A stretch of DNA of 64,000 bases from an uncultured Verrucomicrobiota bacterium (lineage in GTDB: Bacteria; Verrucomicrobiota; Verrucomicrobiia; Methylacidiphilales; UBA1321). Under the pieces are notes generated by a model, which saw only the letters and a program-made list of their open reading frames with translations, did no database searches and was not told the origin of the DNA. Numbering within the stretch: position 1 is the first letter of the stretch; the number at the start of each line of letters is the position of its first letter. The DNA is taken from the NCBI GenBank assembly GCA_903863295.1, contig CAIPBM010000171.1, positions 1 through 64,000 on the forward strand. Reading direction: 5' to 3'. Positions 22,487 through 51,277 of the stretch are shown here, in pieces. Made by a program: the position numbers and the translations under genes.

Positions 22487-22636
22487 CCTGTAACCATCAT
22501 CGATTGGTGCGCCAACCAAATCGACGCTACGGTGGCCCACCTCACGTTAGACTGCCTCACCCATTCGGATCAGTCCGAGCGCATCAGTGCAGTAGAGCCC
22601 CGTTTGATCGAGAGAAACTCCATTCTGAAGCGGTAA
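22475..22636 (+). pseudogene. C-terminal relic of a LacI-family regulator
   Basis: About 54 codons encode FKEPPVTIIDWCANQIDATV and then ERISAVEPRLIERNSILKR. These match the last 55 residues of the intact LacI-family protein at 50173-51222 (FTEPPLTTIDLCARQ, ERMSAVEPRLIERHSVRK). The DNA-binding domain and most of the effector domain are missing. The relic abuts the DUF5107 relic on the other strand within about 10 bp, so a deletion or rearrangement joined two broken genes. Confidence 0.85.
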
Positions 22637-28686: not shown

Positions 28687-28727
28687 GATTGCTTAAGTAG
28701 CTATTATAGCAATTTTAGTCAAATAAA

Positions 28728-28741
28728 TCGGAATGTTCAGA
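28728..28741. promoter_or_regulatory. LacI-type operator 1 (GH39 promoter)
   Basis: TCGGAATGTTCAGA, a near-palindrome sharing 12 of 14 positions with the perfect site at 28837. It covers the -35 zone of the GH39 promoter whose -10 lies at 28703-28708, so binding would block that promoter. See the findings for the four-site set. Confidence 0.6.
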
Positions 28742-28836
28742 TTAATTGACGCTTTGGCTGCGCTATTTTTAGCTCTGAAAGTACTACCTGTAAATTTTTA
28801 CAAACAGATTTTTAGAAAAAGGAACTGCTTGGCATC

Positions 28837-28850
28837 TCGGAACGTTCCGA
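28837..28850. promoter_or_regulatory. LacI-type operator 2 (MFS promoter), perfect palindrome
   Basis: TCGGAACGTTCCGA, a perfect 14-bp palindrome with the central CG typical of LacI/GalR-family operators. It sits 80 bp before the MFS start codon and just upstream of a TAATAC -10-like box at 28858-28863. Confidence 0.68.
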
Positions 28851-28929
28851 TTACGATTAATACTCGTCACGCAGTTTCGCGAGGCGTCTAATCGTATCAA
28901 GTCGCCTGCCCTGAGTACCTTCCGGCCCC

Positions 28930-31431
28930 ATGATCATCACGTGTAAGAAGGAGATTCCGTTTCGATGGATATTCTTCGCCATCCTCCCCTGGGCCTCGAT
29001 TGCCTATACGGGGGGCGTGGCCGGCGTGGCGTTTGTCTTTTCGTTGAAGAAATTTGTCGATAACCCCGCCGGACTCACCTTCATTCTCAGTTTGCCGACC
29101 TTCATCTCCATGGTCACAGGGCCATGTACCTGCTTTATGTCGGACCGGATCTGGACACGTTTCGGTCGCCGTAAACCTTTTATCATCACTTCCTGGATCG
29201 GCATGGGAGGCTGCCTAATCCTTATGCCCTTGATGTCGAATTTCTGGGCTCTTGTTGCGACGTTCATCGCCTACAGCTTCTTTTCCGACCTCAATTCTCC
29301 CATTGATCCCCTCCAGCAGGAAATCACTCCTCCGCAGGAAAGGGGACGTTCGACGGGAGCCATGCAGTGGTGCTGGAACCTGGCCAACATCACCTTCTAC
29401 TTTGTCGCGCTGGGCCGCTTTGATGACGTGCAGTACATGAACGGATTGCTTCTGACAGGGGAGACGGTCATCTATTGGTCAGGCGCACTACTCCTGACTG
29501 TGATGCTTTTACTGATTATTCTCGGCATCAAGGAAATCGATCAAAAAAGCCCGCTGGTTGGACAGCGACTCTCCTTCAAAAGCGTCTTTGGCGGAATCCT
29601 TGACCAGGAATTATGGCCGGTCTACATGCTCGTACTGGGAGCTGCCGCGCTTGGTTCAGGGCTAGGGCCGCTGAGCAACCTGCTCTATACAGACCAGTGG
29701 GCGTATTCCAAGCAGGACATGGGCATCAACATGGCGGCGGGTGGCGTCATCAACATCTTCATCATCGGTCTGTTGACCATTTTTGCCGACAAGCTGAACC
29801 GGATGCGCGCCTATCAGACGTTGATCACCCTCTCCGTCATCGTAAATTTATCCTATTTTTGCTACGTCACATTTCTTTTGCCGGACCAACGCCCTTCGTT
29901 GATTGAAATCATCACCTTTGGCGAAACAGGCAGCATCATTGGCCTGCTCACGGGTATGGTCTATTTCCCACTCGTTTACGATTACATCCGTCGCAACAAG
30001 CTGGGCACTTATGTCGCCGGCGCGAATCTGATCAATCGCATTACGGCGTTTATCACGCTGAATGGCGTGGGGCTCTTTATCTGGATCTTTGCCATCTGTT
30101 TTCAACCTCCGGCCGGCGAAATGACGCGGGTCGTTCTCCGTGATAGTTACCAACAGAAAGGCGATGTTCTTCCTCTCCTGCAAAGCCAATCATGGATCAA
30201 TCCTGGTGACAACACGGCTGTACCTGGATCAAGCATCACCGCGACAACCTGGCAAGCCACCGGCGCGGTGAGCGCCACGGGGCGCTGCTGGGAAGTGCGA
30301 CAGCATGACAAGAGCAGCGAGGAACTCGAGGCGACACGGCAACGTCTCCAGCAACAAGAGTCCCTTTTGTTAGGTAACCTGCCGCCGATCGGCAAGGCAG
30401 TCCCCGGCAACTCCGTGGCCAATCCGTCCTCCGATGGAAATAAAGAGCCGACACCGGAAGAGTTGGCGCAAGAAATTAGTACCATCGATTCCAAGCTCGC
30501 TGCCCGGGCCTTCGCCTTTCGGGACCGGGTCGTGGCCGTGTTAAAAGACCGAATGATCGCCGATGGAGACCAAGTCGTTGATGCCAAAATTGGGGAGGTC
30601 CTGCTGATCGAGTTCCCCACCAAAATCCGCCCTGATGCCCACGAGCTGGACGGCATCCTTCGCCTTTTACGGGAGCAGCATCCTGAAGTCATCGATCTTC
30701 GCCCAGTGAAGCTTGAAACGGGGTACGATATCACCGTTAGCGTGCTTTTGAGTGAAACTTCCGATAAAGATACCTCCGTAAATTATTGGAGGGAGGTGGT
30801 GACAAAAGCGGCGCAAGTGAAGGCGCCCGGTTTGTTGGCCTCAGACGTTGAGCCAATCAAGATCACTCAAGCGTCCGCCCTGACTTTGAATTTGATGGTG
30901 GTCGAGGAGCCTCTCGACACCTACGTTTCGCCGATCAATCGAGTCTTTAACCTGGTGCTTGCCTTATTCAATCGCGAACCACGCCCGGATCACCGCTTGA
31001 TTTCACTTGAGCAAAATCTACGATCCTCCCAGGACATGAACCAGTTGCGCGTGGCTGTAGGGAGTTCTCCCAAGACGATCTCGGTGACCGCCGTTCTGCC
31101 CGAATCTTCCACGAGGGTACCGCTTCCAGATGATCCTGTGATGCAAAAGCTCCGCGGACTCCTTGGACCGACCTCCGCTCCGCTAATACTCGGGCAGGCG
31201 CGCGATTTTTACGATCAAATCGTCAAATGCGCCGCGGCGGAAAAACTCACCGTGGCTTCCCCCATCATCGCGGCTTCCTACGCTCCGATGAAATACAATT
31301 ATATGAGCGGTTATCTCTGGATGCTGCTCATGGGCGTGGTCGGCATCTCACTCACCTTTGTCTTTTCACGATTGGAAGCAGCAGGGCGCGTTCGTAAACT
31401 TGGCGCCGAAGAAGCGGAGGCATCATCATGA
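28930..31431 (+). CDS. MFS (sugar:cation type) transporter with a large insertion before the last helix
   Basis: An 833-aa transporter. Eleven membrane helices are read in the first 400 residues (for example WIFFAILPWASIAYTGG and AYQTLITLSVIVNLSYFC), with the MFS loop motif RIWTRFGRRKPFI between helices 2 and 3. A hydrophilic stretch of about 370 residues (about 400-790) follows, with a coiled coil (EELEATRQRLQQQE) and alpha/beta domains. One last helix, LWMLLMGVVGISLTFVFSRL, ends the protein. Usual family length is about 450. It probably imports a sugar released by the nearby hydrolases. It overlaps the next gene by 4 bp and is preceded by a LacI-type operator. Confidence 0.88.
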   Translation: MIITCKKEIPFRWIFFAILPWASIAYTGGVAGVAFVFSLKKFVDNPAGLTFILSLPTFISMVTGPCTCFMSDRIWTRFGRRKPFIITSWIGMGGCLILMPLMSNFWALVATFIAYSFFSDLNSPIDPLQQEITPPQERGRSTGAMQWCWNLANITFYFVALGRFDDVQYMNGLLLTGETVIYWSGALLLTVMLLLIILGIKEIDQKSPLVGQRLSFKSVFGGILDQELWPVYMLVLGAAALGSGLGPLSNLLYTDQWAYSKQDMGINMAAGGVINIFIIGLLTIFADKLNRMRAYQTLITLSVIVNLSYFCYVTFLLPDQRPSLIEIITFGETGSIIGLLTGMVYFPLVYDYIRRNKLGTYVAGANLINRITAFITLNGVGLFIWIFAICFQPPAGEMTRVVLRDSYQQKGDVLPLLQSQSWINPGDNTAVPGSSITATTWQATGAVSATGRCWEVRQHDKSSEELEATRQRLQQQESLLLGNLPPIGKAVPGNSVANPSSDGNKEPTPEELAQEISTIDSKLAARAFAFRDRVVAVLKDRMIADGDQVVDAKIGEVLLIEFPTKIRPDAHELDGILRLLREQHPEVIDLRPVKLETGYDITVSVLLSETSDKDTSVNYWREVVTKAAQVKAPGLLASDVEPIKITQASALTLNLMVVEEPLDTYVSPINRVFNLVLALFNREPRPDHRLISLEQNLRSSQDMNQLRVAVGSSPKTISVTAVLPESSTRVPLPDDPVMQKLRGLLGPTSAPLILGQARDFYDQIVKCAAAEKLTVASPIIAASYAPMKYNYMSGYLWMLLMGVVGISLTFVFSRLEAAGRVRKLGAEEAEASS

Positions 31432-32006
31432 ACCACGACGAATCTCCTCATTCAGTGGAACCAGCCCAAACGGCGACTTACACGCCGGGCAATTCCGGGC
31501 TAAAGGTCGCGATGATCTTCTATGGCTTTTTGCTGTTTGCCGCGGGATTCGTCCTTCTTGCCATGCCCCTACGTTTGATCTTGTTCGGCAAGATGACCAA
31601 AGCCGAAGCCACCCGAATCGTCAAGACCGAGAAGGGACGGCCCGACCTGGTTCTCACGAACGACGAAGCCGTGCAATCGAATTGTGATCCAAATAATTAC
31701 CGCGCGATTTTTTGGAATGAATTTGATTTTCAAACCGGAGCAGGACAAACCATTTCCACCCGCTGTCCGGTGGGAAGTCGATTGAAGCCCCTTTCCCCCT
31801 TGGTGGATGCCGATGGTTTGCCCACCATGGAGATCATCTATTATAATCCGGACAACCCGGGTCAGATCGTCTTCCCAGACGTCGTCAGTACCTGGTTTGC
31901 TCCTGGAGCGCTGATGATCGTCGGTTTACTGGGCGCCATCATTGGCGGGGTTCTCTATTACTGGGCGAATAAACCCATCTTGCTTCCTCACATTGTTCAA
32001 GAGTAG
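31428..32006 (+). CDS. DUF3592-like membrane protein, partner of the MFS gene
   Basis: A 192-aa protein with two membrane helices (MIFYGFLLFAAGFVLLAM near 25-45 and FAPGALMIVGLLGAIIGGVL near 160-180). A beta-rich extracytoplasmic middle has SRCPVGS-like and MEIIYYNPDNPGQIV motifs typical of DUF3592. Its ATG overlaps the MFS stop by 4 bp, so it is translated with the transporter and may assist it. Function of the family is unknown. Confidence 0.75.
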   Translation: MNHDESPHSVEPAQTATYTPGNSGLKVAMIFYGFLLFAAGFVLLAMPLRLILFGKMTKAEATRIVKTEKGRPDLVLTNDEAVQSNCDPNNYRAIFWNEFDFQTGAGQTISTRCPVGSRLKPLSPLVDADGLPTMEIIYYNPDNPGQIVFPDVVSTWFAPGALMIVGLLGAIIGGVLYYWANKPILLPHIVQE

Positions 32007-32056
32007 TTCCGCCTCCTTCCAAAGAGCATGAGGCTCATAATAGGCATCACTTTGGA

Positions 32057-33640
32057 CTACATTACTGAAATCGCCAGAACCGCCAAAGTTGTGGATTTAT
32101 CAGGGTTCGAGTGAATTTCCAGACACGCTACTTTCTTTTGCGGCTGAGGATTGATCCACTCGAGCGTATATAAATATTGGGATTCTAGTGACGGGTTGGA
32201 AGTCGGAGTGGCATCGAAGGCCTTGGCATAAGGTCGGTTCATTTGTTCCCATGAAAAATGCCAATCCTGGATATTGGCTTGGGAACCGTCGGTCTCATCA
32301 GGGTGCGTTCCGGCCAAGACAACCAAGGGCAATTCAACATAGGATTTATCGGTATAAATCAATCGATAGGAGGCGAAAGGGCCAAATGCAGCCCCCCAAC
32401 CACAGGCGTGCAAAAAGTAAATAAAGTGCAGCTTACGGGATAGGGGGATTCGGACTTTTGAGGGTAGTTTTTTATTGAGAGCGTCGCTCTCTAAACGACC
32501 CGATCTCATGAGAATAAAACTTGGGCCTTTATTCTCATTGAGAATTAAAAACGGCACGCCGTGAATGCGCTGCAGTCCAGGTTCCGCCAGAATGAGTGGG
32601 ACATCGCCAAACCAAGGACGGTCACCAAGGGAGAAATAGCCATTAGCCAATGGACAAAGGGAAATAGGTTTTACGGCACCCTTATCAAAAGATAAATAAT
32701 CAGACGAAACCTTTTCCAGATGTGCAGACGGTAAAAGCGCCGATGTGCGAACAGGGCCAAGCTGATCCTGATTCAACTCCTCCAAGATGGTACGATTTTT
32801 CAGTCTATACTGGCTAGGACTACACTGAAATACCTTGGTAAAAGCGGCACGAAAGGCCCTTTCACTTTCAAATCCCACCTGATGGGCGATCTCCTCAATA
32901 ACATCATCTCCCACCGTCAGACGACTTGCCGCCAGTTTAAGGCGTAACCAAGTCACTTGTCCCATCGGGCTGCGGCCTACATCATGCTGACAGGTTCGGC
33001 GCAAATGTTCGCCACTGAGATGAGCCCTTTGCGCGAGGCTTTCAATCGTCCAATTAAATTCAGGATGCTCAATGACATCATTCCAAAGAGCCCAAAGACG
33101 ACTCGTCCCTTGGGCGGGGTTGAATAAACGGAGGATTTTTGTCTGGATGATATCCAACATTTGCCGCAAGAGCGCAGGGTCCTGGTCTGATTGATATTCA
33201 CGCCGAAAGGCGAGGATCATGGCCTCCAGCGGTTGTGCATGAATGGAAACGATTTTGGGCAAGCCAATGCTCTGGCGGATTAGATTGCCGGAATGATAAT
33301 TTAATATGGTGTAACTCCAACCCAAACCAGATGATTGAAAGTCATGCGGTCGGTCGGGAGGTAACAATAGCGCCTGGCCAGGCGCCAATTGCCAGCGTTG
33401 ATCCCCTGACCGGACGGTACCCGCCCCTCCACTGCAAATCGTGACCATCGTAAAAGGCCAGTCCGCTCTAGCGGCTCGATGATAGCGACTCGCCTCCACA
33501 TGCCCTATCTCGACCAAATCATAGTAATCAAAAGCGGGGCAATCCACACGGCGAACCACCCATTCTGAAGCGCTCTTTCCGATCACGCGCTTTTCCCAAG
33601 GGGGTAAATCTTGTGAGAAGCGATCAGAGGATTGAGTCAT
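32057..33640 (-). CDS. AraC regulator with C-terminal carbohydrate-binding-like domain
   Basis: A 527-aa regulator, about 230 residues longer than usual. An N-terminal cupin (about 45-150: SGGAGTVRSGDQRWQLAPGQ) is followed by the AraC HTH pair in the middle (about 185-285: IESLAQRAHLSGEHLRRTCQ, VGFESERAFRAAFTKVF, SPSQYRLKN). The C-terminal part (about 390-527) has LHFIYFLHACGWGAAFGPF, SYVELPLVVLAGTHPDE and YLYTLEWINPQPQKKVACLE, a jelly-roll pattern like NPCBM-associated domains of secreted hydrolases. This region may sense sugar directly. It stands next to the GH35/GH37/GH1 operon and probably controls it. AraC-like direct repeats lie upstream of that operon at 40742-40772. Confidence 0.85.
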   Translation of the reverse strand: MTQSSDRFSQDLPPWEKRVIGKSASEWVVRRVDCPAFDYYDLVEIGHVEASRYHRAARADWPFTMVTICSGGAGTVRSGDQRWQLAPGQALLLPPDRPHDFQSSGLGWSYTILNYHSGNLIRQSIGLPKIVSIHAQPLEAMILAFRREYQSDQDPALLRQMLDIIQTKILRLFNPAQGTSRLWALWNDVIEHPEFNWTIESLAQRAHLSGEHLRRTCQHDVGRSPMGQVTWLRLKLAASRLTVGDDVIEEIAHQVGFESERAFRAAFTKVFQCSPSQYRLKNRTILEELNQDQLGPVRTSALLPSAHLEKVSSDYLSFDKGAVKPISLCPLANGYFSLGDRPWFGDVPLILAEPGLQRIHGVPFLILNENKGPSFILMRSGRLESDALNKKLPSKVRIPLSRKLHFIYFLHACGWGAAFGPFASYRLIYTDKSYVELPLVVLAGTHPDETDGSQANIQDWHFSWEQMNRPYAKAFDATPTSNPSLESQYLYTLEWINPQPQKKVACLEIHSNPDKSTTLAVLAISVM

Positions 33641-33752
33641 AAAACCTAATGGAGTCTAGTATATAAAATGATTTTTCGTCTAACTAAATGCAAACAGTGG
33701 TACTTGTCACTCATACAATGTAAATGTCAAAGGTTTGTGCTTTTACTTTAGT

Positions 33753-35453
33753 TCATTTTTTAACCAGCCTGATTCCAGCTATGTAGAGGGTTCCTTTACC
33801 ACTAAAGGCGAGATGAAAAGCAAAGGTAAAACCGACATCCCTATCCTCCGATAATGATCTAAAATGTATACTTGTTGTATAAAAATTCCATGAGTTAGTA
33901 GCTTCAACCGAATCCGATATCGTTATATGTCCTAGACTATTTTTACTATTCACAGGGTCCGGTTGCCAACCCTCTATTACATACTTAAGGTTGTTAATAT
34001 CCCCATCCGATTTAACCCAAAAGGAGAGCTGATAACGCTCATTTGCTTTTAGGTTGAAACCGTTGTTGCGCGTTATCAATTTTGCATCAGACTCCGGATA
34101 AAAGCTTTCAGGAAACGTCGGATTAGCTAGGATGGGGGTATCCCGATAATATCGTAACGAAGAGGTCAGGCCTGCGTCGTCGGGTGGAACAAAGCCCGGT
34201 TCCACTTTTGCATTGGTACAGACCAATAGATCGTAAGGTGCCCCATAGGCACCATCAAGCGACCAACCATCGGGCTCTAATATCTTGGGTTTCGCTTGGC
34301 CCATTTTTAAAGGAACCATTGAGTCAAATCGAAAATCAGTAGTCTTTCCTATATTGCGGGAGAAATAAACATGGCCATCAGTCGCACCAATAATTAAATC
34401 GGGCAGACCATCTCCGCTTAAACTAGCGAGTGTCGCCGTTGAACGTTCGGGTAATTTCTCGCGTCCTCCTATGAAAACGTGCTGTCCTTTATCAAACACC
34501 GGCGTTTCGTTGGTTGCATCTGGAGTTTGGTTTAAGAATATATTTAAAAAGCCGGCCCGCTCGGTTGTAAGCAGATCAGCTTTACCGTCGCCATTCCACG
34601 ATACAATTTGAGGGATAAGGTGTTCTCGACCCATCCCAGGAATGACCTTTACCATTTTATCCTCACTAAAGCGGGGTTTTTCTGTGCTTCCCTTGTTCTT
34701 CAGCAAGTAAATACTATTAGCTGAGTAGGAGCCATCTCCTAAAAACAAATCCTTAACACCGCTTTGATTCCAGTCTGCAAAAAAAGGCGCAAGATAATTA
34801 CACCAAAGAGAACCATCACGACGGGTTGGGATCGCTATTTCGTCCAAGTCGCGAGGCATTTTAAAAATCGGCTGCAAGTTAGTGCCACTATTATGCAGAA
34901 GAAATAGCCTTCCAAGATAATTGCCCGCAAATAGATCAAGCTTGCCTTGGCCTTCGGTATCGACCAGTTGTATACGAGGAATGACATTATTAGGCACAAC
35001 ATCTTCACGATATGTCCCAAGAACATACGGGTCTCCCAACCAAATGGGCATTACTTCAGCATGGGTGAAAACTGGCGACGCCTTTGTTCCTTGGTTTGGA
35101 AAATACCAAAAAAAGCCCATAGCATCAGCAATAACTAGATCTGGGAGACCATCACCGTTTAGATCCCCAACCGCAATGGAAGGACTGAGCGAAAGGTTCT
35201 CGATGGAGCCAGTATCAGTAACAACGAGTTGCCTGCCTTCCATTAATTTGATCTGCCCCGTCGAATCAACGCATGACCAAGGATTGCTGATCGGCGTGTA
35301 AGATGAGAAATTATCACTAAAGACAATTTCGTCGGCAGAACAGAATCTACCCAAAGCACCATTTGCAATGATCAGAAAACTGATCAGAAAATAAGTAACA
35401 TCGGTGTTCAACAGTTTCACGCACGTGAGTTTGCTAAACATGCTTTTGATCAC
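33753..35453 (-). CDS. Secreted FG-GAP/VCBS repeat protein
   Basis: A 566-aa protein with an N-terminal signal or anchor (YFLISFLIIANGALG). Residues about 90-400 hold FG-GAP beta-propeller blades with DxNxDGxxDLxxxD-type calcium loops (VGDLNGDGLPDLVIADAMG, WNGDGKADLLTTE, LSGDGLPDLIIGA). The C-terminal part (about 450-566) is a beta-sandwich like a carbohydrate-binding module (LKANERYQLSFWVKSDGD). It is the last gene of the glycosidase operon (20 bp after GH1). A role in substrate binding at the cell surface is plausible, not shown. Confidence 0.78.
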   Translation of the reverse strand: MIKSMFSKLTCVKLLNTDVTYFLISFLIIANGALGRFCSADEIVFSDNFSSYTPISNPWSCVDSTGQIKLMEGRQLVVTDTGSIENLSLSPSIAVGDLNGDGLPDLVIADAMGFFWYFPNQGTKASPVFTHAEVMPIWLGDPYVLGTYREDVVPNNVIPRIQLVDTEGQGKLDLFAGNYLGRLFLLHNSGTNLQPIFKMPRDLDEIAIPTRRDGSLWCNYLAPFFADWNQSGVKDLFLGDGSYSANSIYLLKNKGSTEKPRFSEDKMVKVIPGMGREHLIPQIVSWNGDGKADLLTTERAGFLNIFLNQTPDATNETPVFDKGQHVFIGGREKLPERSTATLASLSGDGLPDLIIGATDGHVYFSRNIGKTTDFRFDSMVPLKMGQAKPKILEPDGWSLDGAYGAPYDLLVCTNAKVEPGFVPPDDAGLTSSLRYYRDTPILANPTFPESFYPESDAKLITRNNGFNLKANERYQLSFWVKSDGDINNLKYVIEGWQPDPVNSKNSLGHITISDSVEATNSWNFYTTSIHFRSLSEDRDVGFTFAFHLAFSGKGTLYIAGIRLVKK

Positions 35454-35472
35454 CTATTTTTCCAATAATAGC

Positions 35473-36747
35473 TCAAGTGACAGGCAGCTCAGATAGAAAG
35501 GGTTTCAACGAGTTTCCGCTGAATCCGTTGTTTTCGATAATTTCTTTAAAGAAATCAGCCGAAGGCTTTGGCGTCCTCTGGAAAGTTTGACGATCCACGC
35601 TAACTAATCCAAAACGCGGCTTATAGGAACCCCACTCGTAGTTGTCCATCGTGGACCAATAGATATAGCCATCAACCTTCACGCCACGGTCAATCGCATC
35701 TTTGATGGCGGACAGATATTGCGCGATATAGACAATACGAAAGCGGTCATCGTCCGCGGAGCAGCCATTCTCAGTAATTATGACCGGATAATCCGTGAAA
35801 CGTTGCAGGCTTTGGCAAAGGCCTTCTGGGTAAAACTCCTCCAAATAAAACCTCTTGTCGATGAGCTTCAAATACTTATGCGGATAAACCGTGCCATGGC
35901 AGCTTGCCTTTCGGGCATCGACCATCTCCCGTGTATAAAAGTTAATCGCCCAATAATCGATAGCCCCTTTTAATCCAGGAACCACGACTGCATCGGTGTC
36001 CGGGTAGATAAACTCACCGGTTCGTATGCCGTGAAAAAAGAACTCGTTCGTAATATGATCAAGAAATTGACACATGAGATTGTCAAACTTGTCGTAATAG
36101 CGTTGCGGAAAGAAATGAGAGAGTGCATGTGCTGAACTCACACTCGCCGAGGACTGTGATTTCAAATAGTGATAAACGTGCGCATGGGCTTTCAAAATTT
36201 CCAGTTTCCTCGGACATCCATAATAGCCGCCTCGATTGAATTCGTTGAAAATGTTCCATGAGAAGACGTAGCTCTTGATTTCCGGGACGATACGTTCCAC
36301 GAATCGATAGAAAAAGGGCAGATTCTCTTCCTTGTTGAATTCGCCCTTTTCTTCAAACCATTGCGGGTGAGAAAAGTGGTGCAACGTGACCATCGGTTTG
36401 ATTTTACGCTGGCACAGGAGGGCAAGTAACTCGACGTAATGAGCAATCGCCTCCTCATTCCACTCACCTTCCCTGGGTTCGATCCGGCTCCACTCAATGG
36501 AAAAGCGATAGACCTGGTGCCCCAGACGAGCAAGTAGTTCAACATCCTCACGGAATAGTTCCCAGTGATTGCAAGCCAGACCGGAGGGCTCATCAATATC
36601 CCATTGGCTCCAAATTCCGCCACGTTGTTCCTTGGTCCAAAAATTAGAATGGATGTTATTACCTTCAATTTGATGGGCTGCGGTTGAGCTCCCCCAAAGA
36701 AAGCCAGGAGGAAACTGAATGCGCGGCAAATTAAATATATCGTACAT
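35473..36747 (-). CDS. Glycoside hydrolase family 1 (beta-glucosidase/beta-galactosidase type)
   Basis: A 424-aa GH1 enzyme. FPPGFLWGSSTAAHQIEG is the family N-terminal signature. The acid/base Glu169 lies in NIFNEFNRGG, where the family usually has T(F/L)NEP, and the nucleophile Glu326 in VIITENGCS. No signal peptide, so it acts in the cytosol on imported oligosaccharides. It starts 9 bp after the trehalase-like gene. The change of the Pro after the acid/base Glu to Phe is unusual and may mark a variant specificity. Confidence 0.88.
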   Translation of the reverse strand: MYDIFNLPRIQFPPGFLWGSSTAAHQIEGNNIHSNFWTKEQRGGIWSQWDIDEPSGLACNHWELFREDVELLARLGHQVYRFSIEWSRIEPREGEWNEEAIAHYVELLALLCQRKIKPMVTLHHFSHPQWFEEKGEFNKEENLPFFYRFVERIVPEIKSYVFSWNIFNEFNRGGYYGCPRKLEILKAHAHVYHYLKSQSSASVSSAHALSHFFPQRYYDKFDNLMCQFLDHITNEFFFHGIRTGEFIYPDTDAVVVPGLKGAIDYWAINFYTREMVDARKASCHGTVYPHKYLKLIDKRFYLEEFYPEGLCQSLQRFTDYPVIITENGCSADDDRFRIVYIAQYLSAIKDAIDRGVKVDGYIYWSTMDNYEWGSYKPRFGLVSVDRQTFQRTPKPSADFFKEIIENNGFSGNSLKPFLSELPVT

Positions 36748-36755
36748 AAATCACC

Positions 36756-39878: not shown

Positions 39879-39901
39879 GGTGATGAGATTTAACCAAGAG
39901 C

Positions 39902-39927
39902 AAAAAAGGGCCGCCGAAGCGGCCCTT
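39902..39927 (-). terminator. Intrinsic terminator between the PEP-CTERM gene and GH35
   Basis: On the minus strand AAGGGCCGC-ttcg-GCGGCCCTT forms a perfect 9-bp stem with a UUCG loop, directly followed by a T-run (complement of 39902-39907). It ends transcription from the PEP-CTERM gene, yet sits just before GH35, so it likely acts as an internal attenuator. Confidence 0.85.
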
Positions 39928-39952
39928 AAATCATGAAAAAGCAGTGGAAAAC

Positions 39953-40702
39953 TTAGGCCAACCGGCTGCGCTTACGCTTAATGATCACGAGAGTCAAAAG
40001 TCCGCCGACCAGGAGAGCATAAACAGAAGGCTCGGGCACCACTTGCTCTTGCAGCTGGAAGCCATTCACGTCGATCTCATTTCCACTGAGTTGAGAGGCA
40101 ACTAAATCGAGGTTCCCTCCGGAATCGGCCGTACCAGTCAAAACAATATAGTTGTTAGGCGACAGAAGAGAGGTCGCACTGCTATTGTATCCAACTTGAA
40201 CTGCCGTCGCTCCATTCAGAGACCAAGCTGACTCACGATCCCGATCCGGCGCCGAATAGAGGTAGAGGTTGTAAGTTGAACCGGCGGTAAGGCCGGAGAA
40301 TTTAAAGTCGCCACCAACTGGGTTGTAGGGATAAGGATTGGCGTCAACGTTCAGGAAGCCCTCATAGAGGTTGGACAACACGGTTGAGGGCAGAGAGCTA
40401 CCGCCCGAGCCTCGGGAATATTCGCCCAGAGCTCCGTTGTTGGGCGTTATTACCAAGGTAACGCCAGAGCTCGTGTTTCCAACCGTCTGAAGACTCGTCG
40501 TCAGGGGACTGTAAATTGTGGAAGAAAACGCGATATTGTTCCAGTAATCTCCCAAGGAACCGACCACGCCAGCTCCGGTCTGTATATCGGAGACAGTTGA
40601 ATTATAGGAATTTCCGCCGAACTGAATATCGATTAAAATCTGTGCTTTAGCGGATAAGCCAGCCGATACCAAAAGAAACATCACGAGTAAGGTCTTTTTC
40701 AT
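39953..40702 (-). CDS. PEP-CTERM sorting-domain protein
   Basis: A 249-aa secreted protein. Signal peptide MKKTLLVMFLLVSAGLSAKA, then a beta-rich domain (ILIDIQFGGNSYNSTV, FKFSGLTAGSTYNLYLYSAP) of jelly-roll character. The C-terminal tag is VVPEPSVYALL, a hydrophobic helix and KRKRSR. It leads the GH35-GH37-GH1-FG-GAP gene series and may be a surface-held carbohydrate-binding protein. Two direct repeats typical of AraC targets lie 40-70 bp before its start. Confidence 0.85.
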   Translation of the reverse strand: MKKTLLVMFLLVSAGLSAKAQILIDIQFGGNSYNSTVSDIQTGAGVVGSLGDYWNNIAFSSTIYSPLTTSLQTVGNTSSGVTLVITPNNGALGEYSRGSGGSSLPSTVLSNLYEGFLNVDANPYPYNPVGGDFKFSGLTAGSTYNLYLYSAPDRDRESAWSLNGATAVQVGYNSSATSLLSPNNYIVLTGTADSGGNLDLVASQLSGNEIDVNGFQLQEQVVPEPSVYALLVGGLLTLVIIKRKRSRLA

Positions 40703-40741
40703 ATACTAACGGTATGCCTTTGGACTGCTCTTAGCTAGGCC

Positions 40742-40772
40742 CTAAATCCACCAGTTTCGGCTCTAAATCCAC
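40742..40772 (-). promoter_or_regulatory. AraC-type direct repeats upstream of the glycosidase operon
   Basis: On the minus strand GTGGATTTAG occurs twice (40763-40772 and 40742-40751), exactly 21 bp apart, which is two helical turns and the spacing of AraC-type half-sites. It lies just upstream of the PEP-CTERM gene that heads the operon. The AraC-type gene at 32057 is the natural candidate to bind it. Confidence 0.6.
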
Positions 40773-40869
40773 ATTGCCCTTTTTTGTCTGCCATGGCGAT
40801 CAAGCGCGAATATCTCACGAGCGGCTCTCCGGTCCGTCCCCCAGAAGTTAAAATAATAACGTGGCCGAT

Positions 40870-41532
40870 TTATTTTCGGTACGAATTTGGTAAGGCGGCT
40901 GCGTCCTGATATGTCTTTAGAGCAGCGGCAAAATCAGGTGGCATGGTGGGAAGCATTGCGGGGGATATGGAAACTAGCTCATAATGAGTGGTCCCGAATT
41001 CCCAGACCACTGGCCTTTTGGTCTTGCAGTCAATGTAAGCCGAATAATCGAAGATTAAATTTTGTTCCTTCAGTTGCACCTGCGTCTTAAAATGCCAGCA
41101 CGTCTTGTCCTTCTGATTTTCGATGTCGACGTAATTATCCAGGGCGAGCCACTGCAAATTGGGAAAGTCGATGCTCGCCGAATCATTGCCCCGGGGCAGA
41201 GGGGTAATCATGACTTCATGGTGACCAGGCAGTTGCTCAATGCGGTAGCCCTGGGAGAACCAGACTTCAGAACGGGAGCCATCGGTGTAGACTGAAAGAA
41301 GTTCGCGAGTCGCGGCTGATTTAGTGATCACCAATTGATTGATCAATCGATGACCTGGCGGCGGTTTAGCGGGCGAGTCCAAGTGGCTGACGGCGATCGT
41401 GCACGAGCTGTTATCTGGCACTGGTGAAAGAAACGGTGGTACGGGTTTGGGAGCGGCACTAGGGCTTTGACCGTCAGCCACCAAAGGCAGCAACAGCACG
41501 ACAACAAATGAGAGGATCAAAAACTTATTCAT
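40870..41532 (-). CDS. Secreted hypothetical protein, fifth gene of the Verru_Chthon operon
   Basis: A 220-aa protein from ATG 41532 (MNKFLILSFVVVLLLPLVAD, a signal peptide). The longer frame from 41616 lies inside the upstream gene and lacks a signal start. The mature part is beta-rich (HRLINQLVITKSAATRELL, YRIEQLPGHHEVMITPL). It is loosely like periplasmic lipoprotein-sorting or outer-membrane carrier folds, but I cannot place it in a family. The start overlaps the 3' end of the cassette A gene by 8 bp, so the protein is made with the prepilin-like set. Confidence 0.7.
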   Translation of the reverse strand: MNKFLILSFVVVLLLPLVADGQSPSAAPKPVPPFLSPVPDNSSCTIAVSHLDSPAKPPPGHRLINQLVITKSAATRELLSVYTDGSRSEVWFSQGYRIEQLPGHHEVMITPLPRGNDSASIDFPNLQWLALDNYVDIENQKDKTCWHFKTQVQLKEQNLIFDYSAYIDCKTKRPVVWEFGTTHYELVSISPAMLPTMPPDFAAALKTYQDAAALPNSYRK

Positions 41533-44500
41533 AAACAGGCTCAAGCTGGCTGGCCACAATCTGGCCGGTAAAGCGATCAATCGAGAGGTGCCACCAGTAG
41601 CGTTTCTCGCCCTCAATCTGGAATTGGGTCAAGCCAGTTGCACTCGCGGGATAACGTCCGCTTTGGGCAATGATATCGATCAGGAGATTCCAGGTCCGGG
41701 TATTGCCCACCGCCGCAAGGGGGCGCACGACCGCTTCCCGTCTCGTTTTGTTAAGCGGAAAAGCCGTGTAACTGGTGCTGGCACTATTCTGTCCCAGGAA
41801 TCGCGTCACGAGTTCGCTGCGGTTGGCCAGCGGGCCCGTCGCTGAAGTCGTGCCGAACCGTTCCGTCACCAGTAAATTGGCCAGCGCGGTGGCATCGGAG
41901 GTTGAGATAATCGGATCACCCGTCGCCGCAGCACTGGCAGCCAGTTCGTTCTTCGTCTCACCCTGAAGTATCGCCTGGATGACGGGGGCCTGTCGCGTAT
42001 TCAGATCAACGGTTCCGGCGACGACATCCTCCTCATCGATCGAAAAGAGGTCGAGCAATCCGGCGTCCGCACTATCCTTGGTAAAGAAATCGAGCGATTT
42101 CCAAGGTTCCCCGCGGTGGACGTAGCCAAGCTCACCTACCGTACGGAAGGGCCGCTTGAGGATCAAAGGCCGCTCCGGGTGATCGATACCGGTGTCTGTC
42201 CCAGCCGAAGACTTCATCTGGGCGCTAAAGCCATCAGTGAATCCGTTAGCATCATGGTCATTTCCATCCGCATAGTAGCCATCTCCACCGCGGATGATAC
42301 CGTCGTTATCGGCGTAGTAGTAATTATAGAAACTAAAATTGGTTAATTGGTTTCCACCAGTTTTAATAGCTGTGGGAATATTTTTGGCATTGATATTGAG
42401 AAGACCGGCCCAGACTCCCCCTGGGTAAGTCTGCCATGTTTGATAATTTAAGATCATGTCGTCATACCATCCATTGGAGGTGTATTGTTTCACGAATGAC
42501 TTATAGCCTTGGTAAGCAGCAAGATAGTTCCAAGTGGTCGGAACTCTCATTCGTCCAGTGTCCCAATCGTAGCCCAACAGCCCCCGGGTCGCATTTCCGA
42601 ATACGGAGGGTAGCACCGTCTCGTTAAATGAGGGGCCAACTAAATCGGTGGAGGCTGTATCTTCACGAAAACCCTCGAAAACACCGAAACGGTCTGTGCG
42701 TGGATCGGGCAGCATCCTGTAAGCCGATTTTGGGCGCGTTGTTGCGCTCGCCGATTGGACGGAGGTCAGGCTATGGCTGGGGACTTCCCAGTCATTATCG
42801 ATACCGGACAAGCACTTAAGCCAGCACGAAGGCAAGACCGTACCTGTGTCCGGGGTAACAATGCAGTTCTTGACGCGTTGGATGGTTCTCCAATTGCCGC
42901 TACCCGCAGGGTATTCGCATTGCAAATAGAAAGTGATCCCTCCTGCGCCTGAAATAACTCCAGCATCGGTTGGATTCATTGGGGCACCTGTAGGTGTTGC
43001 AGGCGAGTAGTAGCCACCATGTTCAGCGGTGTATGAGGGCGCAAAAGCATCGCCGGTCTTTAAGCCAATAAAATCCCATCCCGAACCAGACGAATAGTCA
43101 TTCGCCTCGTGTAGATGGTCTGCTGATACCGACACGGTTACGCCAAGATTGGAAGTGAGGACTTGGGGTTCCCGAAAATTATCGGCGGTCGAGTAAGCGC
43201 TCGACGGGATCGTTATAGTTTCGGCGCTGGTGAATGTATTTTGACCATAGGCGTAGGCTTCGGTTTGAAACGTACATCCGGGCCACAGCGACCAAGCGTT
43301 CCCTCCGTTACTACTATTTGAAGAGAAAGCCACCACCGTTGCGGTACCAACGGCGTAGACCCGCAGAGGTAGTGCGGGTCCTGCTTCCGGATTCTGATGC
43401 GGGTTCCAAAGCTCAAATTGCAGCCAGGCCGAGACGTTGGGGTAATACCACGGTTGATTCAATTGCGGATTCCCGTAACCATTAGGATCATTCAGCCCGG
43501 CTGGAACCTTCGCGCGAAAGATGACCTGATTAATCTTGCTGATATAGGGTAGATTGCCGATGCCATAAAAATCATAAAAATCCGACGGCTGATTGCCAGA
43601 AGGCGTACCACCATAGGTAACGGTCGTTGGTGCCGGATCTGCTCCGTACTGATCGATAATATTGGCCCCGATCTGGATGACCTGAAAGTCGGTGCGGCTG
43701 TCGTAATCCACCGTGTCAGACCCAGAGGTTGAGTGGCCGTTGGGAAAACTTGCGTCTTTGTTGAGATCGGTTCCCGCCGTCTTGCCGAGGGAACCATTCA
43801 GAATCCCCGCCTGCAGCAGCTCAAAGAAATCTGGCTCACGGGGTGGGTTCACTTGGGCCACCTGAGCGAGCGTTTTGATCGAACTCGCGACGGTGCTGGG
43901 TGAATCCGGGGAGGTATACGTCCACTTGCCCGTGGCTGAGCTGTAGACCAACCCAAAATAGTCGTGGATCAAGGCATCGTTCGTGGTGCTGTTCGGGTTG
44001 GCGATTTTCTGCTGGATCAGTTGGATACGGGACAACGGAAAGCGCCGCCGCACCAGCGGGTCACCCGCGTTGACCGTGCCGGATCCATCCAGAAGCATCC
44101 CGCCGTTGGCAAACTTGACGCTGGGGAAGTTGCGGTTGACCGAGGTGGCGGACTCGGCGTTATTGGCATATTGATACTGGGATGCCACCGATGCGACCGA
44201 GATCGTATTACTGGAGGTCGCGACTGGATTGGGCGGGCAATAACTCGGCGCATTCAACTCCCGGCTGAACGTGCCCAGATACGGCAGGGCCTGGGCTTCC
44301 GTTCCGCCGGGCCAGGTAAAATTAAAGAAATCGAGCAAGTCCTGGCGCGTTGTGAAAGTCTGGTCGCCGTTCTGGGTCGTCGTAAACGCGGCACTTGGGT
44401 CGTTGGTGTTGTATTGAAAAGTGTTGGTGGAAAAGCCGCCGTGAAACAAGTAATCAAAGTAGGACATGGCTGCGTTGGTGGCATTGGCCGTCCTCGCATT

Positions 44501-45367
44501 GCGCCACTGGACAATCTTGTCGACATCCGCCTGGGTCAGCCCGGGAATCGCCGTCAGGTCGGCCTGCCCCAGGCGTCCACGCTTGCTCGATTTATCGAAG
44601 TCGGTTGCCAGCCCGATCGCGTTGCCTGACGCCGTATTGGAGTTGCATCCCGCCGTATTGGCGTCCAGCAAGCCGCCCTCGTCGTAGATCATGTAGGCAT
44701 ACCGCCCCACGACATAGTTGGTCGAGTTGGAATTGTCCTTTAGTGTCGAGCTCCACGCCGCGAAGGGCTTGGGCCCAGCACGCGTCACCAGCGTCCAATC
44801 GGGCGCGGTGAAATTAGTCGCCACTTCATTGGTGTCCATTAAGAGCGCCTTATTCCAGCGCGCGGCGGTAATCGAGCGACCGTCGATCGATGAGGCGCTC
44901 CCGCTGTTCAACTGGGAAGCCAAGTTGCTGGGGGGAAAGTCACTCGCATCATAAAGTGCGGCATTCGTGCTGGGGAAAAACTGCGCGTTATAGGTGCTCC
45001 GCTTTAATAAATTCGGGAACGGATCGTTCCCGGCACTCGGGTAATAGCCGGCAAAAGCCGGAACAATGGTCAGATTCGTGGTGGGGATGTAGACGTTCTG
45101 GGGATTGTAGGAATTGCTGTTGCCGGCAAATGGGCGGGAACCTGCCGCGATCTCCTGTCGGCAATCGTTCAGGATTTCCTGCAACGCGCCCTGGGCCAAT
45201 TGATCGGCCTTTTGCTGTCCGGCACTGCTGGAGGAAATCTGCCGGCTCGTAGTCGCGCGCGTCAGGATCAATGCCACCAGAAGCGTGAGAATAACCACCA
45301 GCGAGAGGATCAGAATCAGCGCGGCACCATGCGATCCGCTATGAATATTATTTCGGCGCGTTTTCAA
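41525..45367 (-). CDS. Verru_Chthon cassette protein A
   Basis: A 1280-aa protein. The start is taken as TTG 45367, which overlaps the stop of gene C (TTGA) and gives MKTRRNNIHSGSHGAALILI, a prepilin/GspK-PilX-like N-terminal helix (LILSLVVILTLLVALILTRA). Then follows a very long, Asn/Ser/Thr-rich, mostly beta extracellular part. The family (TIGR02600 type) is the large member of a four-gene cassette known from Verrucomicrobia. By analogy with minor pseudopilins it should sit at the tip of a short pilus-like fibre. Its biological role is unknown. A longer frame to 45493 overlaps gene C and has no support. Confidence 0.88.
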   Translation of the reverse strand: MKTRRNNIHSGSHGAALILILSLVVILTLLVALILTRATTSRQISSSSAGQQKADQLAQGALQEILNDCRQEIAAGSRPFAGNSNSYNPQNVYIPTTNLTIVPAFAGYYPSAGNDPFPNLLKRSTYNAQFFPSTNAALYDASDFPPSNLASQLNSGSASSIDGRSITAARWNKALLMDTNEVATNFTAPDWTLVTRAGPKPFAAWSSTLKDNSNSTNYVVGRYAYMIYDEGGLLDANTAGCNSNTASGNAIGLATDFDKSSKRGRLGQADLTAIPGLTQADVDKIVQWRNARTANATNAAMSYFDYLFHGGFSTNTFQYNTNDPSAAFTTTQNGDQTFTTRQDLLDFFNFTWPGGTEAQALPYLGTFSRELNAPSYCPPNPVATSSNTISVASVASQYQYANNAESATSVNRNFPSVKFANGGMLLDGSGTVNAGDPLVRRRFPLSRIQLIQQKIANPNSTTNDALIHDYFGLVYSSATGKWTYTSPDSPSTVASSIKTLAQVAQVNPPREPDFFELLQAGILNGSLGKTAGTDLNKDASFPNGHSTSGSDTVDYDSRTDFQVIQIGANIIDQYGADPAPTTVTYGGTPSGNQPSDFYDFYGIGNLPYISKINQVIFRAKVPAGLNDPNGYGNPQLNQPWYYPNVSAWLQFELWNPHQNPEAGPALPLRVYAVGTATVVAFSSNSSNGGNAWSLWPGCTFQTEAYAYGQNTFTSAETITIPSSAYSTADNFREPQVLTSNLGVTVSVSADHLHEANDYSSGSGWDFIGLKTGDAFAPSYTAEHGGYYSPATPTGAPMNPTDAGVISGAGGITFYLQCEYPAGSGNWRTIQRVKNCIVTPDTGTVLPSCWLKCLSGIDNDWEVPSHSLTSVQSASATTRPKSAYRMLPDPRTDRFGVFEGFREDTASTDLVGPSFNETVLPSVFGNATRGLLGYDWDTGRMRVPTTWNYLAAYQGYKSFVKQYTSNGWYDDMILNYQTWQTYPGGVWAGLLNINAKNIPTAIKTGGNQLTNFSFYNYYYADNDGIIRGGDGYYADGNDHDANGFTDGFSAQMKSSAGTDTGIDHPERPLILKRPFRTVGELGYVHRGEPWKSLDFFTKDSADAGLLDLFSIDEEDVVAGTVDLNTRQAPVIQAILQGETKNELAASAAATGDPIISTSDATALANLLVTERFGTTSATGPLANRSELVTRFLGQNSASTSYTAFPLNKTRREAVVRPLAAVGNTRTWNLLIDIIAQSGRYPASATGLTQFQIEGEKRYWWHLSIDRFTGQIVASQLEPVYE

Positions 45368-46341
45368 AGTGAAGAGGGGGAGGGGAGCGTGTTGATCGGA
45401 ATCGTCCGCGCAAAGATGCGGACCGCCTGCGCAGCCTGAACCGGGAGATTGGCCTGCGTGGCAAAATTTGATTGGTTGATGACGGTCTGCCACTGGGCGA
45501 TCGGTGGAAGGGACTGGTTCGCCCCAACCTTGAAATCGCCCAGAGCCGACGTGACGCCGGAAAGATCCGGAGTGTTGGCCCCATGGGCCACCAGCGCTCG
45601 ACTGCGGTCATCCAGCACCGCGATTGCCATGTAGATGGCCGAGACATCCTGCCAGCCATTCAGCGCGGTATGATTGGGCGTAGAGAGAAACGGGACATTC
45701 GAGAAGGTGCCATCGCTCAGGATGTAGCAATACTCCAGACGAAAGACGCCGTCGGCCAGGACTTGGTAGTCCGTATCCGTTCCCAAATTCAAATCGGGAT
45801 AACCTCCCGCACCGGTCCCGGCAAGGTTCGCCCACGTCGTCGAGAGGGTCGCAGGCAAAAAGACCATCGGAATTCCGGACGAAATCGTATTCCAGCCCGT
45901 TCCCTTTGCCAGCCGCTGCATCTGGTAGGTCTGGCTGTAGATCCGGTAGGCGAGCAGGGAGACCTTATTGCGCGGCGCCGGATCCGGGCTGGCGGAAAAA
46001 TACCCCGACGCCATGGCGTAAAAAGCCATGTTGTCGTTTCCTGCCTGGGTCTGATTGGAATCTTTGACAATATAATCGACATCGGTCCGCTTCAGCATGG
46101 AGGTCAGGTCAATCGTCAAGCGGTCAAAGACCAGCCGGGCCTGGGCGTCAGCATCCATTTTTTCCGTGCTGTGATTTAACAAATTTTGGGCCTCCAGCGT
46201 CAGGGCCGCGCAGACCGCGAAAATGAGCAGCAGCACCGTCATCGCCACGAGCAGTTCCACCAGCGTAAAACCCTGCCGGATCTTTCGTGAGGGAACAGCG
46301 CAGCAAATCATAAAATAGACGCGACGGGAAAGCGATTTCAT
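45364..46341 (-). CDS. Verru_Chthon cassette protein C (prepilin-like)
   Basis: A 325-aa prepilin-like protein. After a basic leader comes the type IV prepilin cleavage motif GFTLVELLVAMTVLLLIFAV, with Gly before the cut and Glu at +5. A periplasmic C-terminal domain follows. This is the third gene of the D-B-C-A cassette. ATG 46341 or the internal ATG 46311 may start it. Processing would need a prepilin peptidase encoded elsewhere. Confidence 0.85.
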   Translation of the reverse strand: MKSLSRRVYFMICCAVPSRKIRQGFTLVELLVAMTVLLLIFAVCAALTLEAQNLLNHSTEKMDADAQARLVFDRLTIDLTSMLKRTDVDYIVKDSNQTQAGNDNMAFYAMASGYFSASPDPAPRNKVSLLAYRIYSQTYQMQRLAKGTGWNTISSGIPMVFLPATLSTTWANLAGTGAGGYPDLNLGTDTDYQVLADGVFRLEYCYILSDGTFSNVPFLSTPNHTALNGWQDVSAIYMAIAVLDDRSRALVAHGANTPDLSGVTSALGDFKVGANQSLPPIAQWQTVINQSNFATQANLPVQAAQAVRIFARTIPINTLPSPSSL

Positions 46342-46404
46342 AGGTGGCTCACCAGTAATTTCAGGGGCCTCTCTGCTCTAGATCTTGTCTCGTCGCACCT
46401 TGAT

Positions 46405-46869
46405 CTAACTGCGGTTGAGTGCAAAAAATACTTCCACGGCTGGCGATGCATTGACGGCTTGGGCCGGCCACGAAAGCTTCGCCAGTCCGGTAATGGTATT
46501 TTGCAAGCTTGGAGGGCTGAGCGTCACGGTGACCTTGTACCTGGCCCCGGCGGAAGTCGCATTCGGCAACGCCCCGCCGGATTGATCCAGATAAATGGTT
46601 TGGGATTGGTTTCCGCTGCTTGTCGCAGTCGGCAGCGACAATTGATAAGTCGGGGAAGTCTGCGCCGTTGCGGGTGTCGATTTTAAATCTGAAACAACCG
46701 TGGACACCACATTGATCCCCGTCGTTTCCTCGGAGGCATTCTTGATCGTTGCCAGACTGAGCGGTAATAGACCCAGCAAAACGATCAGGCAAAAGGACAT
46801 GATGGCAAGCGCCAGAACAACCTCGATCAGGGAAAATCCGCGCTTCTGAGATAAGCACCTGAGGTTCAT
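46405..46869 (-). CDS. Verru_Chthon cassette protein B (prepilin-like)
   Basis: A 154-aa minor-pseudopilin-like protein with motif RGFSLIEVVLALAIMSFCLI and Glu at +5 after the cleavage Gly. It is short and matches cassette B proteins (TIGR02598 type). Its start codon overlaps the stop of gene D (ATGA), so translation is coupled. A gap of 63 bp separates it from gene C. Confidence 0.85.
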   Translation of the reverse strand: MNLRCLSQKRGFSLIEVVLALAIMSFCLIVLLGLLPLSLATIKNASEETTGINVVSTVVSDLKSTPATAQTSPTYQLSLPTATSSGNQSQTIYLDQSGGALPNATSAGARYKVTVTLSPPSLQNTITGLAKLSWPAQAVNASPAVEVFFALNRS

Positions 46870-47579
46870 GGTCGATAAATCCGGACAGCTCCGCTCAGCC
46901 CCGCGACTTGAATGGCTGCATAGTTTGATTGATTACCATAGACCGGCTTCAGGCCAACTTCAAAAAAAGGCGCGGCATTTCCTCCCACCTCGCTGACCAC
47001 CCCCTGAGGATCGATCTGAAGGATACCCGCGCTCGTCACTCCCTGGATGCTCGTCGGCCCCGTGGTATTGGTGAACTGGTAGGTGCCAATCGCAAACGAA
47101 TAGGGCGTGGCGGATTGGGCAAAGGTTGAATCGCCTAGTTTGTAACTGTTGGGCACCACCTGCCGGGCATTCCCACTCGTCGTGCTGTTTGCCGGAAGGG
47201 AGACAGTCTGGATATTGGGGATCTTCAGCAATTTATTAATCGCCTTGTAGGTGCCAGAAGTCTGGTTCAAACTAGGATTGTTGGCGGAGAAAATCTGGGT
47301 CGAGTCGTTGGACGCAATCACCCCGATAATCATGGAGCCGGTGGGCGAAGCTGTGCTGTCCTGCAAAACACCTACATAGACGTACGTGTTCATTGACATG
47401 GCATAGGATCGGGCCTGTTCCAACGTATCGCTCACGCTATAAATACCCTGACTCACCGTATTCGACTTAAACGAAGTGAGAACCGGAGCCCCGAGCCCAA
47501 TCAGAATGACGGCGATGGCACAGACAACCAGCATCTCAACCAAAGTAAAACCCTGTTGTCCGCGGCGATAGTTACTCAT
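46866..47579 (-). CDS. Verru_Chthon cassette protein D (prepilin-like)
   Basis: A 237-aa prepilin-like protein from ATG 47579 (MSNYRRGQQGFTLVEMLVVC), with AAGGG five bases upstream. The frame open to 47648 adds 23 residues without support. After the N-terminal helix comes a GspH-like beta domain (LEQARSYAMSMNTYVYVGVL). It is the first gene of the cassette. Its upstream region carries a LacI-type operator at 47717-47730. Confidence 0.85.
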   Translation of the reverse strand: MSNYRRGQQGFTLVEMLVVCAIAVILIGLGAPVLTSFKSNTVSQGIYSVSDTLEQARSYAMSMNTYVYVGVLQDSTASPTGSMIIGVIASNDSTQIFSANNPSLNQTSGTYKAINKLLKIPNIQTVSLPANSTTSGNARQVVPNSYKLGDSTFAQSATPYSFAIGTYQFTNTTGPTSIQGVTSAGILQIDPQGVVSEVGGNAAPFFEVGLKPVYGNQSNYAAIQVAGLSGAVRIYRP

Positions 47580-47716
47580 AATCCCTTGCCTTTCTTGGAG
47601 GAGGTGTCCGGTTGTAGTGCGTTCAGTGTGATCGGATCCGCTGGACACTTGGCTTGAACCGCGCGCAATTGCATCGTAAGGACAATAATCGCGAGCTAAG
47701 GTCTCGTCAACATAAA

Positions 47717-47730
47717 TCGGAACGATCAGA
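47717..47730. promoter_or_regulatory. LacI-type operator 3 (Verru_Chthon cassette)
   Basis: TCGGAACGATCAGA, whose complement TCTGATCGTTCCGA differs from operator 4 at one position. It lies 138 bp upstream of the cassette D start. Confidence 0.6.
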
Positions 47731-48053
47731 TAATGAGTTATTGTTCTGGTAATAGACGCTTATGCATAACGCTTACTCCTTACTTTCAGCACCTTACAAA
47801 AATAAGATCGCGGAAATTAGCTAGAGGACTTTAGCGAGTCAACCGCGCTTAATATACAAATAAGCCTGTGGAAAGCGCACTATATTCAACCAGCTTCTCC
47901 ACAGATAGAGCGTAGTCTGTAAAAGTTTAGGATGTAATATATTGGTTTTTGACCCAAATTTTTTCTGAACTTAGCACTGAAAGCCCTCCTCCCTAAGGGT
48001 GGCTTAAGCGAAAATGCTGGGCTACCTTCGTCTGTTCCAAATGAAACTTTATA

Positions 48054-48067
48054 TCGGATCGTTCCGA
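48054..48067. promoter_or_regulatory. LacI-type operator 4 (48109 operon)
   Basis: TCGGATCGTTCCGA within the longer inverted repeat ATATCGGA-tcgt-TCCGATAT (48051-48070). It lies 42 bp before ATG 48109 and directly abuts a TATTAT -10-like box at 48068-48073. Confidence 0.65.
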
Positions 48068-48108
48068 TATTATTTGACTTTGTCGCATGAGCGGAGTTTA
48101 CTTTGATC

Positions 48109-50047: not shown

Positions 50048-50172
50048 CTTGATGCGGAAAGGGATCATGTCCTGCGCGCACCTAAACACAGGCCTCTGCC
50101 CAATCTCGGCTTGCGGAATCTTGGCCATAAACCCAGAACTAGTGCTTGAACTCGCCTAAGACCCGCCGCGCC

Positions 50173-51222: not shown

Positions 51223-51277
51223 TAACAATTTCTTCGTGAAGAGATACCCTGCAAAACAACTTCAAAACCGGTTAGCT

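Follow-up and report, generated by a model that had tools for sequence, protein, structure and literature searches.

A probable local LacI-type regulon joins polysaccharide-degradation genes and a divergent Verru_Chthon-like prepilin cassette in an uncultured verrucomicrobial bacterium

We analysed a 64,000-nucleotide stretch of DNA (the window; contig CAIPBM010000171.1 of assembly GCA_903863295.1) from an uncultured Verrucomicrobiota bacterium, in which four matching palindromic sites lie in two divergent control regions, at 28687–28929 on the left and at 47649–48102 on the right. The sites probably define a local LacI regulon that includes genes of the glycoside hydrolase (GH) family GH39, a sugar transporter and a prepilin cassette, as one case of a general coupling between such cassettes and sugar sensing. 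What is new is this operator set and the statistical link between cassettes and sugar-sensing regulators. Membership in a sugar-sensing regulon would give the cassettes a first testable function, namely the attack on, or uptake of, specific polysaccharides. The link would also explain why genomes hold many diverged cassette copies, and would offer a rule by which the substrate of a cassette could be guessed from the adjoining regulator and enzymes.

A preliminary description made from the window's sequence had placed 14-bp sites at 28728, 28837, 47717 and 48054, and all four were found there. The full operator is a 16-bp palindrome, ATCGGAACGTTCCGAT, with CG in the centre; the A..T pair that flanks the 14-mer is present in three of the four sites (the site at 28836 has C...T instead), and the central CG likewise in three, the centre of operator 1 being TG. 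The earlier remark that size and centre are those of LacI-family operators holds, as 16 bp falls within the 16–22 bp range of their even palindromes. The sites are as follows.

28727 to 28742, no strand: operator 1, ATCGGAATGTTCAGAT, upstream of GH39a, two mismatches to ATCGGAACGTTCCGAT
28836 to 28851, no strand: operator 2, CTCGGAACGTTCCGAT, between GH39a and the MFS transporter gene, a perfect 14-bp palindrome
47716 to 47731, no strand: operator 3, ATCGGAACGATCAGAT, upstream of the prepilin cassette
48053 to 48068, no strand: operator 4, ATCGGATCGTTCCGAT, upstream of the 48103-GH39b-LacI-araB-araD cluster

The genome searched comprises 4,095,283 bases at 93.7% completeness, and the site counts hold for this assembled part. 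With up to two mismatches, ATCGGAACGTTCCGAT occurs at exactly four places, operators 1–4, all of them intergenic, so that the genome scan proposed in the preliminary description found the 16-mer confined to these upstream sites and not scattered. Three mismatches added 12 further places, compared with about 14 expected from base counting, and the 14-mer with up to two mismatches matched 25 places, the majority of the checkable ones inside coding open reading frames (ORFs). We relied on genome-wide counts because the count in the 64-kb window is uninformative (14-mer with up to three mismatches, 6 against 4.1 expected, which is not significant and a weak test). As the consensus was derived from the sites themselves, a consensus-free test was added, in which clusters of mutually similar palindromic 16-mers were sought in both intergenic stretches (243 bp and 454 bp); a four-site cluster was reached in 0 of 1500 first-order Markov shuffles at any of three settings. 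All four sites lie, as had been claimed, in the divergent regions GH39a(-)/MFS(+) and cassette D(-)/48103(+), 36–140 bp upstream of starts, and they show the location upstream of starts and the genome-wide enrichment there that mark LacI-family operators. It is very improbable that the palindromes are RNA hairpins with a terminator or attenuator role, or that they reflect chance or a repeat element: operator 4 with its flanks (48051–48070) does score as terminator-like, but operators 1–3 were not terminator-like in our scans, every site precedes genes, no family of such sites extends through the genome, and four sites were never reached in the shuffles.

The genes of the two flanking clusters are listed below.

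25906 to 28686, minus strand: GH39a, GH39-like catalytic part with CBM6/35 and ricin-B lectin domains
28930 to 31431, plus strand: MFS sugar transporter with a large insertion, matching MFS_1 and MFS_2
31428 to 32006, plus strand: small membrane protein, overlapping the MFS gene, no family match
48109 to 48633, plus strand: secreted protein, first gene of the GH39b operon (the 48103 gene), no family match
48641 to 50047, plus strand: GH39b, Pfam Glyco_hydro_39 at 46.5 bits, above the gathering score of 26
50173 to 51222, plus strand: LacI/PurR-type regulator, ATG start at 50173, with a longer TTG-initiated ORF from 50146
51236 to 51979, plus strand: secreted protein within the GH39b cluster
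52169 to 53851, plus strand: L-ribulokinase AraB, NF003154 at 609 bits (cut-off 428)
53898 to 54596, plus strand: L-ribulose-5-phosphate 4-epimerase AraD, NF006047 at 340 bits (cut-off 257)

Two GH39 operons had been named in the preliminary description. GH39b bears this out, while GH39a stays just under the gathering score (Glyco_hydro_39, 24.4 bits against 26), yet is homologous to GH39b (28% identity, E 2e-47). Because the cluster encodes the AraB kinase together with the AraD epimerase, knowledge of the pathway points to L-arabinose as the sugar. The cluster also holds two AraC proteins (24864 and 32057).

Promoter boxes were assigned as consensus matches only. Operator 1 overlaps the −35-like box of TGAACA-16-TAAAAT, operator 2 occupies the 17-bp spacer of TTGGCA-17-TACGAT facing the MFS gene, and operator 4 abuts TATTAT or TTGACT; as described before, these three overlap or abut promoter-like boxes of downstream genes, and they are placed as repressor sites are. 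Operator 3 lies upstream of TTGACG-17-TATTGT, the best putative cassette promoter, at 5 bp from its −35 box, a position open both to activation and to repression helped by looping. At C28, a cassette of the same genome with another LacI protein and another operator, the operator likewise precedes an identical TTGACG box, at a distance of 7 bp. Operators 1 and 2 are 109 bp apart, and operators 3 and 4 are 337 bp apart. It is unlikely, if conceivable, that the regulon is real and the cassette stands outside it; operator 3 would then be an auxiliary site, and a DNA loop between it and operator 4 would tighten the repression of the GH39b operon, with a similar loop perhaps joining operators 1 and 2. 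Such an arrangement would account for two sites per control region, for the 337-bp spacing, which amounts to a nearly whole number of helical turns (32.1), and for the position of operator 3 ahead of the cassette −35 box instead of across the promoter. In the LacI family, some 7% of sites are found more than 200 bp upstream (PMC4052901). However, operator 3 is far nearer to the best cassette promoter than to operator 4, the unrelated LacI/cassette pair at C28 has its operator equally placed relative to the cassette promoter, and at cassette C50 of genome G008 the operator overlaps the putative cassette promoter. The regulator sequence also has no obvious C-terminal tetramerisation extension.

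The likely reader of the four sites is the LacI-family protein encoded at 50146–51222. The LacI/GalR gene reported earlier in this cluster indeed has its ATG at 50173, the 50146 ORF matches Peripla_BP_3 at 109.8 bits, and the protein aligns end to end with PurR, over residues 17–353 (E 7e-40), an alignment that takes in the helix-turn-helix (HTH), the hinge and the ligand domain. In PurR numbering, the recognition helix carries I15, T16 and D20, and hinge position 54 is a methionine, as it also is in the solved PurR entry 1vpw. According to Camas et al., residue 20 is tied to NT-6 of the operator, with arginine at this residue associated with G (PMC2978694). The operator half-site ATCGGAAC has C and not G at NT-6, and D20 is the sole acidic residue 20 among the roughly ten LacI-family proteins of the genome; the pairing of D20 with C at NT-6 would fit the 50146 protein as the reader, as support and not as proof. 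The LacI protein of genome G025, which belongs to another family, has I, A and E in the helix, with glutamate at residue 20, and it lies among sites with the half-site ATCGAAAC, again with C at NT-6, which differs from the window half-site only at NT-4, for which residue 16 is the main partner. A strict aspartate-20/cytosine rule was considered as a general one and rejected, being broken by the G008 C50 regulator (I, N, D), whose sites have A at NT-6.

It is improbable that the palindromes are read by a different regulator, be it a further LacI-family protein or either AraC protein of the cluster. The assignment of the sites to the 50146 protein is indirect, and several more LacI proteins of the genome are without arginine at residue 20, but the sites are confined to the cluster that carries the 50146 gene, one of them precedes its own operon, and the C28 LacI has a distinct motif of its own. 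AraC-family sites are usually direct repeats and not CG-centred palindromes, which counts against an AraC reader. Separately, the window holds at 22418–22630 (plus strand), near the left edge of the cluster, a LacI C-terminal remnant with 54% identity over 69 residues to the 50146 regulator and no intact full-length ORF, which is probably a decayed paralogue.

A GTDB-wide pattern scan found no orthologues of the regulator, and since it has no close relative, the coupling was examined at other cassettes instead. Cassettes were mapped by TIGR02599 matches and set against Peripla_BP_3 regulators at a distance of 10 kb, with the expectation taken from regulator density. Across eight genomes of the genus, a regulator with a LacI-type ligand domain lies within this distance of 18 of 54 cassettes, compared with 3.8 expected (0 of 20000 simulations), and in three genomes from other genera the figure is 27 of 54, compared with 7.0 expected (0 of 20000 simulations). 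When one complete chromosome was rotated circularly, so that the clustering within each set was preserved, the result was 13 of 5000 at 10 kb. The cassette-linked regulators combine a LacI, GntR or AraC DNA-binding domain with a common sugar-binding domain, and they overlap or adjoin cassette genes at C28, C47, L107, L112, L114 and L125. Near the cassettes we found enzymes of GH38, GH95, GH130, GH2, GH29, GH3, GH94, GH4 and GH39, and transporters of the SSF or MFS type. Verru_Chthon cassettes reach up to tens of copies per genome in the order.

Operator sets were also found at some of these cassettes. By strict criteria, a CG-centred LacI-type palindrome in at least two copies is present at 3 of 40 cassette loci, compared with 0.16 expected. 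At C28, a perfect GATAAAACGTTTTATC lies between a GH38 gene and the cassette-LacI operon, a copy precedes a PATR/PEP-CTERM gene, and three of the four genome-wide matches fall within 15.4 kb of C28. At G008 C50, LacI-type sites lie between LacI and cassette, and downstream; the third match, L126, is weaker and is not relied on. Manual inspection added G025 C1 (L139), with the arrangement SSF / LacI-GH39-large gene-cassette-PATR-like gene, where the motif ATCGAAACGTTTCGAT, related to that of the window, precedes LacI, GH39, the cassette operon and the last gene, and all four of its genome-wide matches are inside the 15.6 kb of the locus. Co-localisation and these other operator loci thus lend independent support to the view that Verru_Chthon-type cassettes may be wired to carbohydrate sensing.

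Several observations weigh against the regulon as proposed. At the site itself, operator 3 precedes the −35 box, a less typical place for repression by LacI proteins, and is 337 bp from operator 4, so that it may serve the GH39b operon instead. The HTH of the regulator scores 19.4 bits, under the Pfam cut-off of 27, its recognition code is not strict (G008 C50 has D20 with A at NT-6), and among 384 genomes of the class there is no orthologue above 36% identity. At most of the 40 cassette loci screened, no repeated CG-centred palindromes were found; several regulators at these palindrome-less cassettes have GntR or AraC HTHs, for which such palindromes are not expected. Co-localisation may also stem in part from shared accessory islands. 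The shared LacI regulon of the preliminary description, cassette included, is supported in part, by the operator shape, the exclusivity of the sites to this locus, the LacI gene within the cluster and the co-localisation elsewhere.

In the regulon that we propose, the regulator (50173–51222) would bind the 16-bp ATCGGAACGTTCCGAT at four places, two per divergent control region. Without inducer, it would repress GH39a and the MFS transporter with its partner, its own 48103-GH39b-lacI-araB-araD cluster (autoregulation), and the cassette D-B-C-A with the fifth gene and the PEP-CTERM protein. A polysaccharide breakdown product, most likely L-arabinose or an arabinose-containing oligosaccharide, would release the repressor, and minor pseudopilins (GspH/I/J/K-like) would be produced together with the enzymes. 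The cassette product would probably fit the cell's type II secretion system (T2SS) or type IV pilus machine to that substrate. More tentatively, and with a good deal of doubt, cassettes might be interchangeable, substrate-specific minor-pseudopilin (tip) modules, one set per polysaccharide locus and each switched on by its own sugar sensor, that re-tip a shared T2SS or type IV pilus machine to suit the polysaccharide present.

The cassette of the window consists of the following features.

46866 to 47579, minus strand: cassette protein D, GspH-like prepilin with N_methyl, TIGR02596 at 35.7 bits (below the cut-off of 70), likely ATG at 47579
46405 to 46869, minus strand: cassette protein B, GspI-like prepilin, TIGR02598 at 56.2 bits (above the cut-off of 51.4)
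45364 to 46341, minus strand: cassette protein C, GspJ-like prepilin, TIGR02599 at 36.9 bits (below the cut-off of 256.5)
41525 to 45493, minus strand: very large cassette protein A with a GspK-like N-terminus, its true start lying downstream of 45493
40870 to 41616, minus strand: fifth cassette gene, secreted protein of no known family, with homologues beside A elsewhere
39953 to 40702, minus strand: PEP-CTERM protein, last in the cassette unit, TIGR02595 at 20.7 bits (cut-off 16)
39906 to 39927, minus strand: terminator-like hairpin (9-bp stem with 7 GC pairs, then a T-rich tail) that closes the cassette unit ahead of GH35

Because of this strong hairpin (39927–39906), the GH35, trehalase-like and GH1 genes are not assumed to be part of the cassette operon. 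The earlier assignment to Verru_Chthon stands for protein B, which is over its cut-off, but C and D are well under theirs and A has no TIGR02600 match; by its profile scores, the cassette is a divergent, Verru_Chthon-like relative. Homologues of protein A occur at other divergent cassettes with 31–35% identity, and two of three that were re-scanned gave weak GspK N-terminal matches. Together with the matches of D to GspH, B to GspI and C to GspJ, likewise weak, N-terminal and short of the family cut-offs, this suggests that D-B-C-A may form a minor-pseudopilin tip complex. No match in the PDB was found with a profile of protein A, Pfam gave PilX_N alone and at chance level, and an AlphaFold2 model from a 10-sequence alignment had a mean pLDDT of 35. 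Homologues of the fifth gene lie beside A at L090, L093, L108, L112, L124, L125 and L132.

Local regulons in which a LacI-family protein controls sugar genes are common (Ravcheev et al. 2014, PMC4052901), and the window resembles the PurR/RbsR/Cra-like examples in its even, CG-centred palindromes, divergent promoters, autoregulation, and targets (sugar transporter, glycoside hydrolases and pentose catabolism). It differs in the apparent inclusion of a prepilin cassette, and in a recognition helix (I, T, D) and half-site unlike those of the arginine-20 majority. The cassette shares with Verru_Chthon (TIGR02596, TIGR02598, TIGR02599 and TIGR02600) the D-B-C-A set, the prepilin signals, the very large A and the many copies per genome, but it represents a divergent branch with a conserved fifth secreted protein. 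The likeness to the T2SS minor pseudopilins GspH/I/J/K lies in gene order as well as N-terminal similarity, whereas A has roughly four times GspK's size; in the annotated part of the window, no core genes of a secretion system were identified. Our literature search found no paper naming Verru_Chthon cassettes. In Verruconatronum alginivorum, a pseudopilin gene lies in an alginate cluster and another pseudopilin is induced on alginate (PMC13274419), which parallels the window in that a verrucomicrobial pseudopilin is found in a polysaccharide cluster and one is induced by the substrate. In contrast to the window, that gene is a single PulG-like one, with 67 homologues and no described four-gene cassette, and no regulator or operator was identified (PMC13274419).

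The surroundings of the other cassettes yielded further observations. On the contig of the window, at C171:80.9–88.5 kb (L086:16958–20000 and L087:1–4453), lies a second cassette of a stronger TIGR02599 type, with a GntR-type regulator, which carries a LacI-like sugar-binding domain, immediately in front of it. Large PATR-repeat proteins, which may be surface partners of the cassette products, are encoded beside cassettes at L089:14361–17576, L090:14060–17719, L105:1563–3005, L110:3407–7561 and L113:13391–18175, and two of them show the PEP-CTERM motif. Finally, GntR/Peripla_BP_3 regulators that are closely related recur in three genomes (L091:6693–7823, L107:7337–8464 and L123:11159–12745), each overlapping the first gene of a cassette or lying next to it, and regulator and cassette possibly form a fixed unit.

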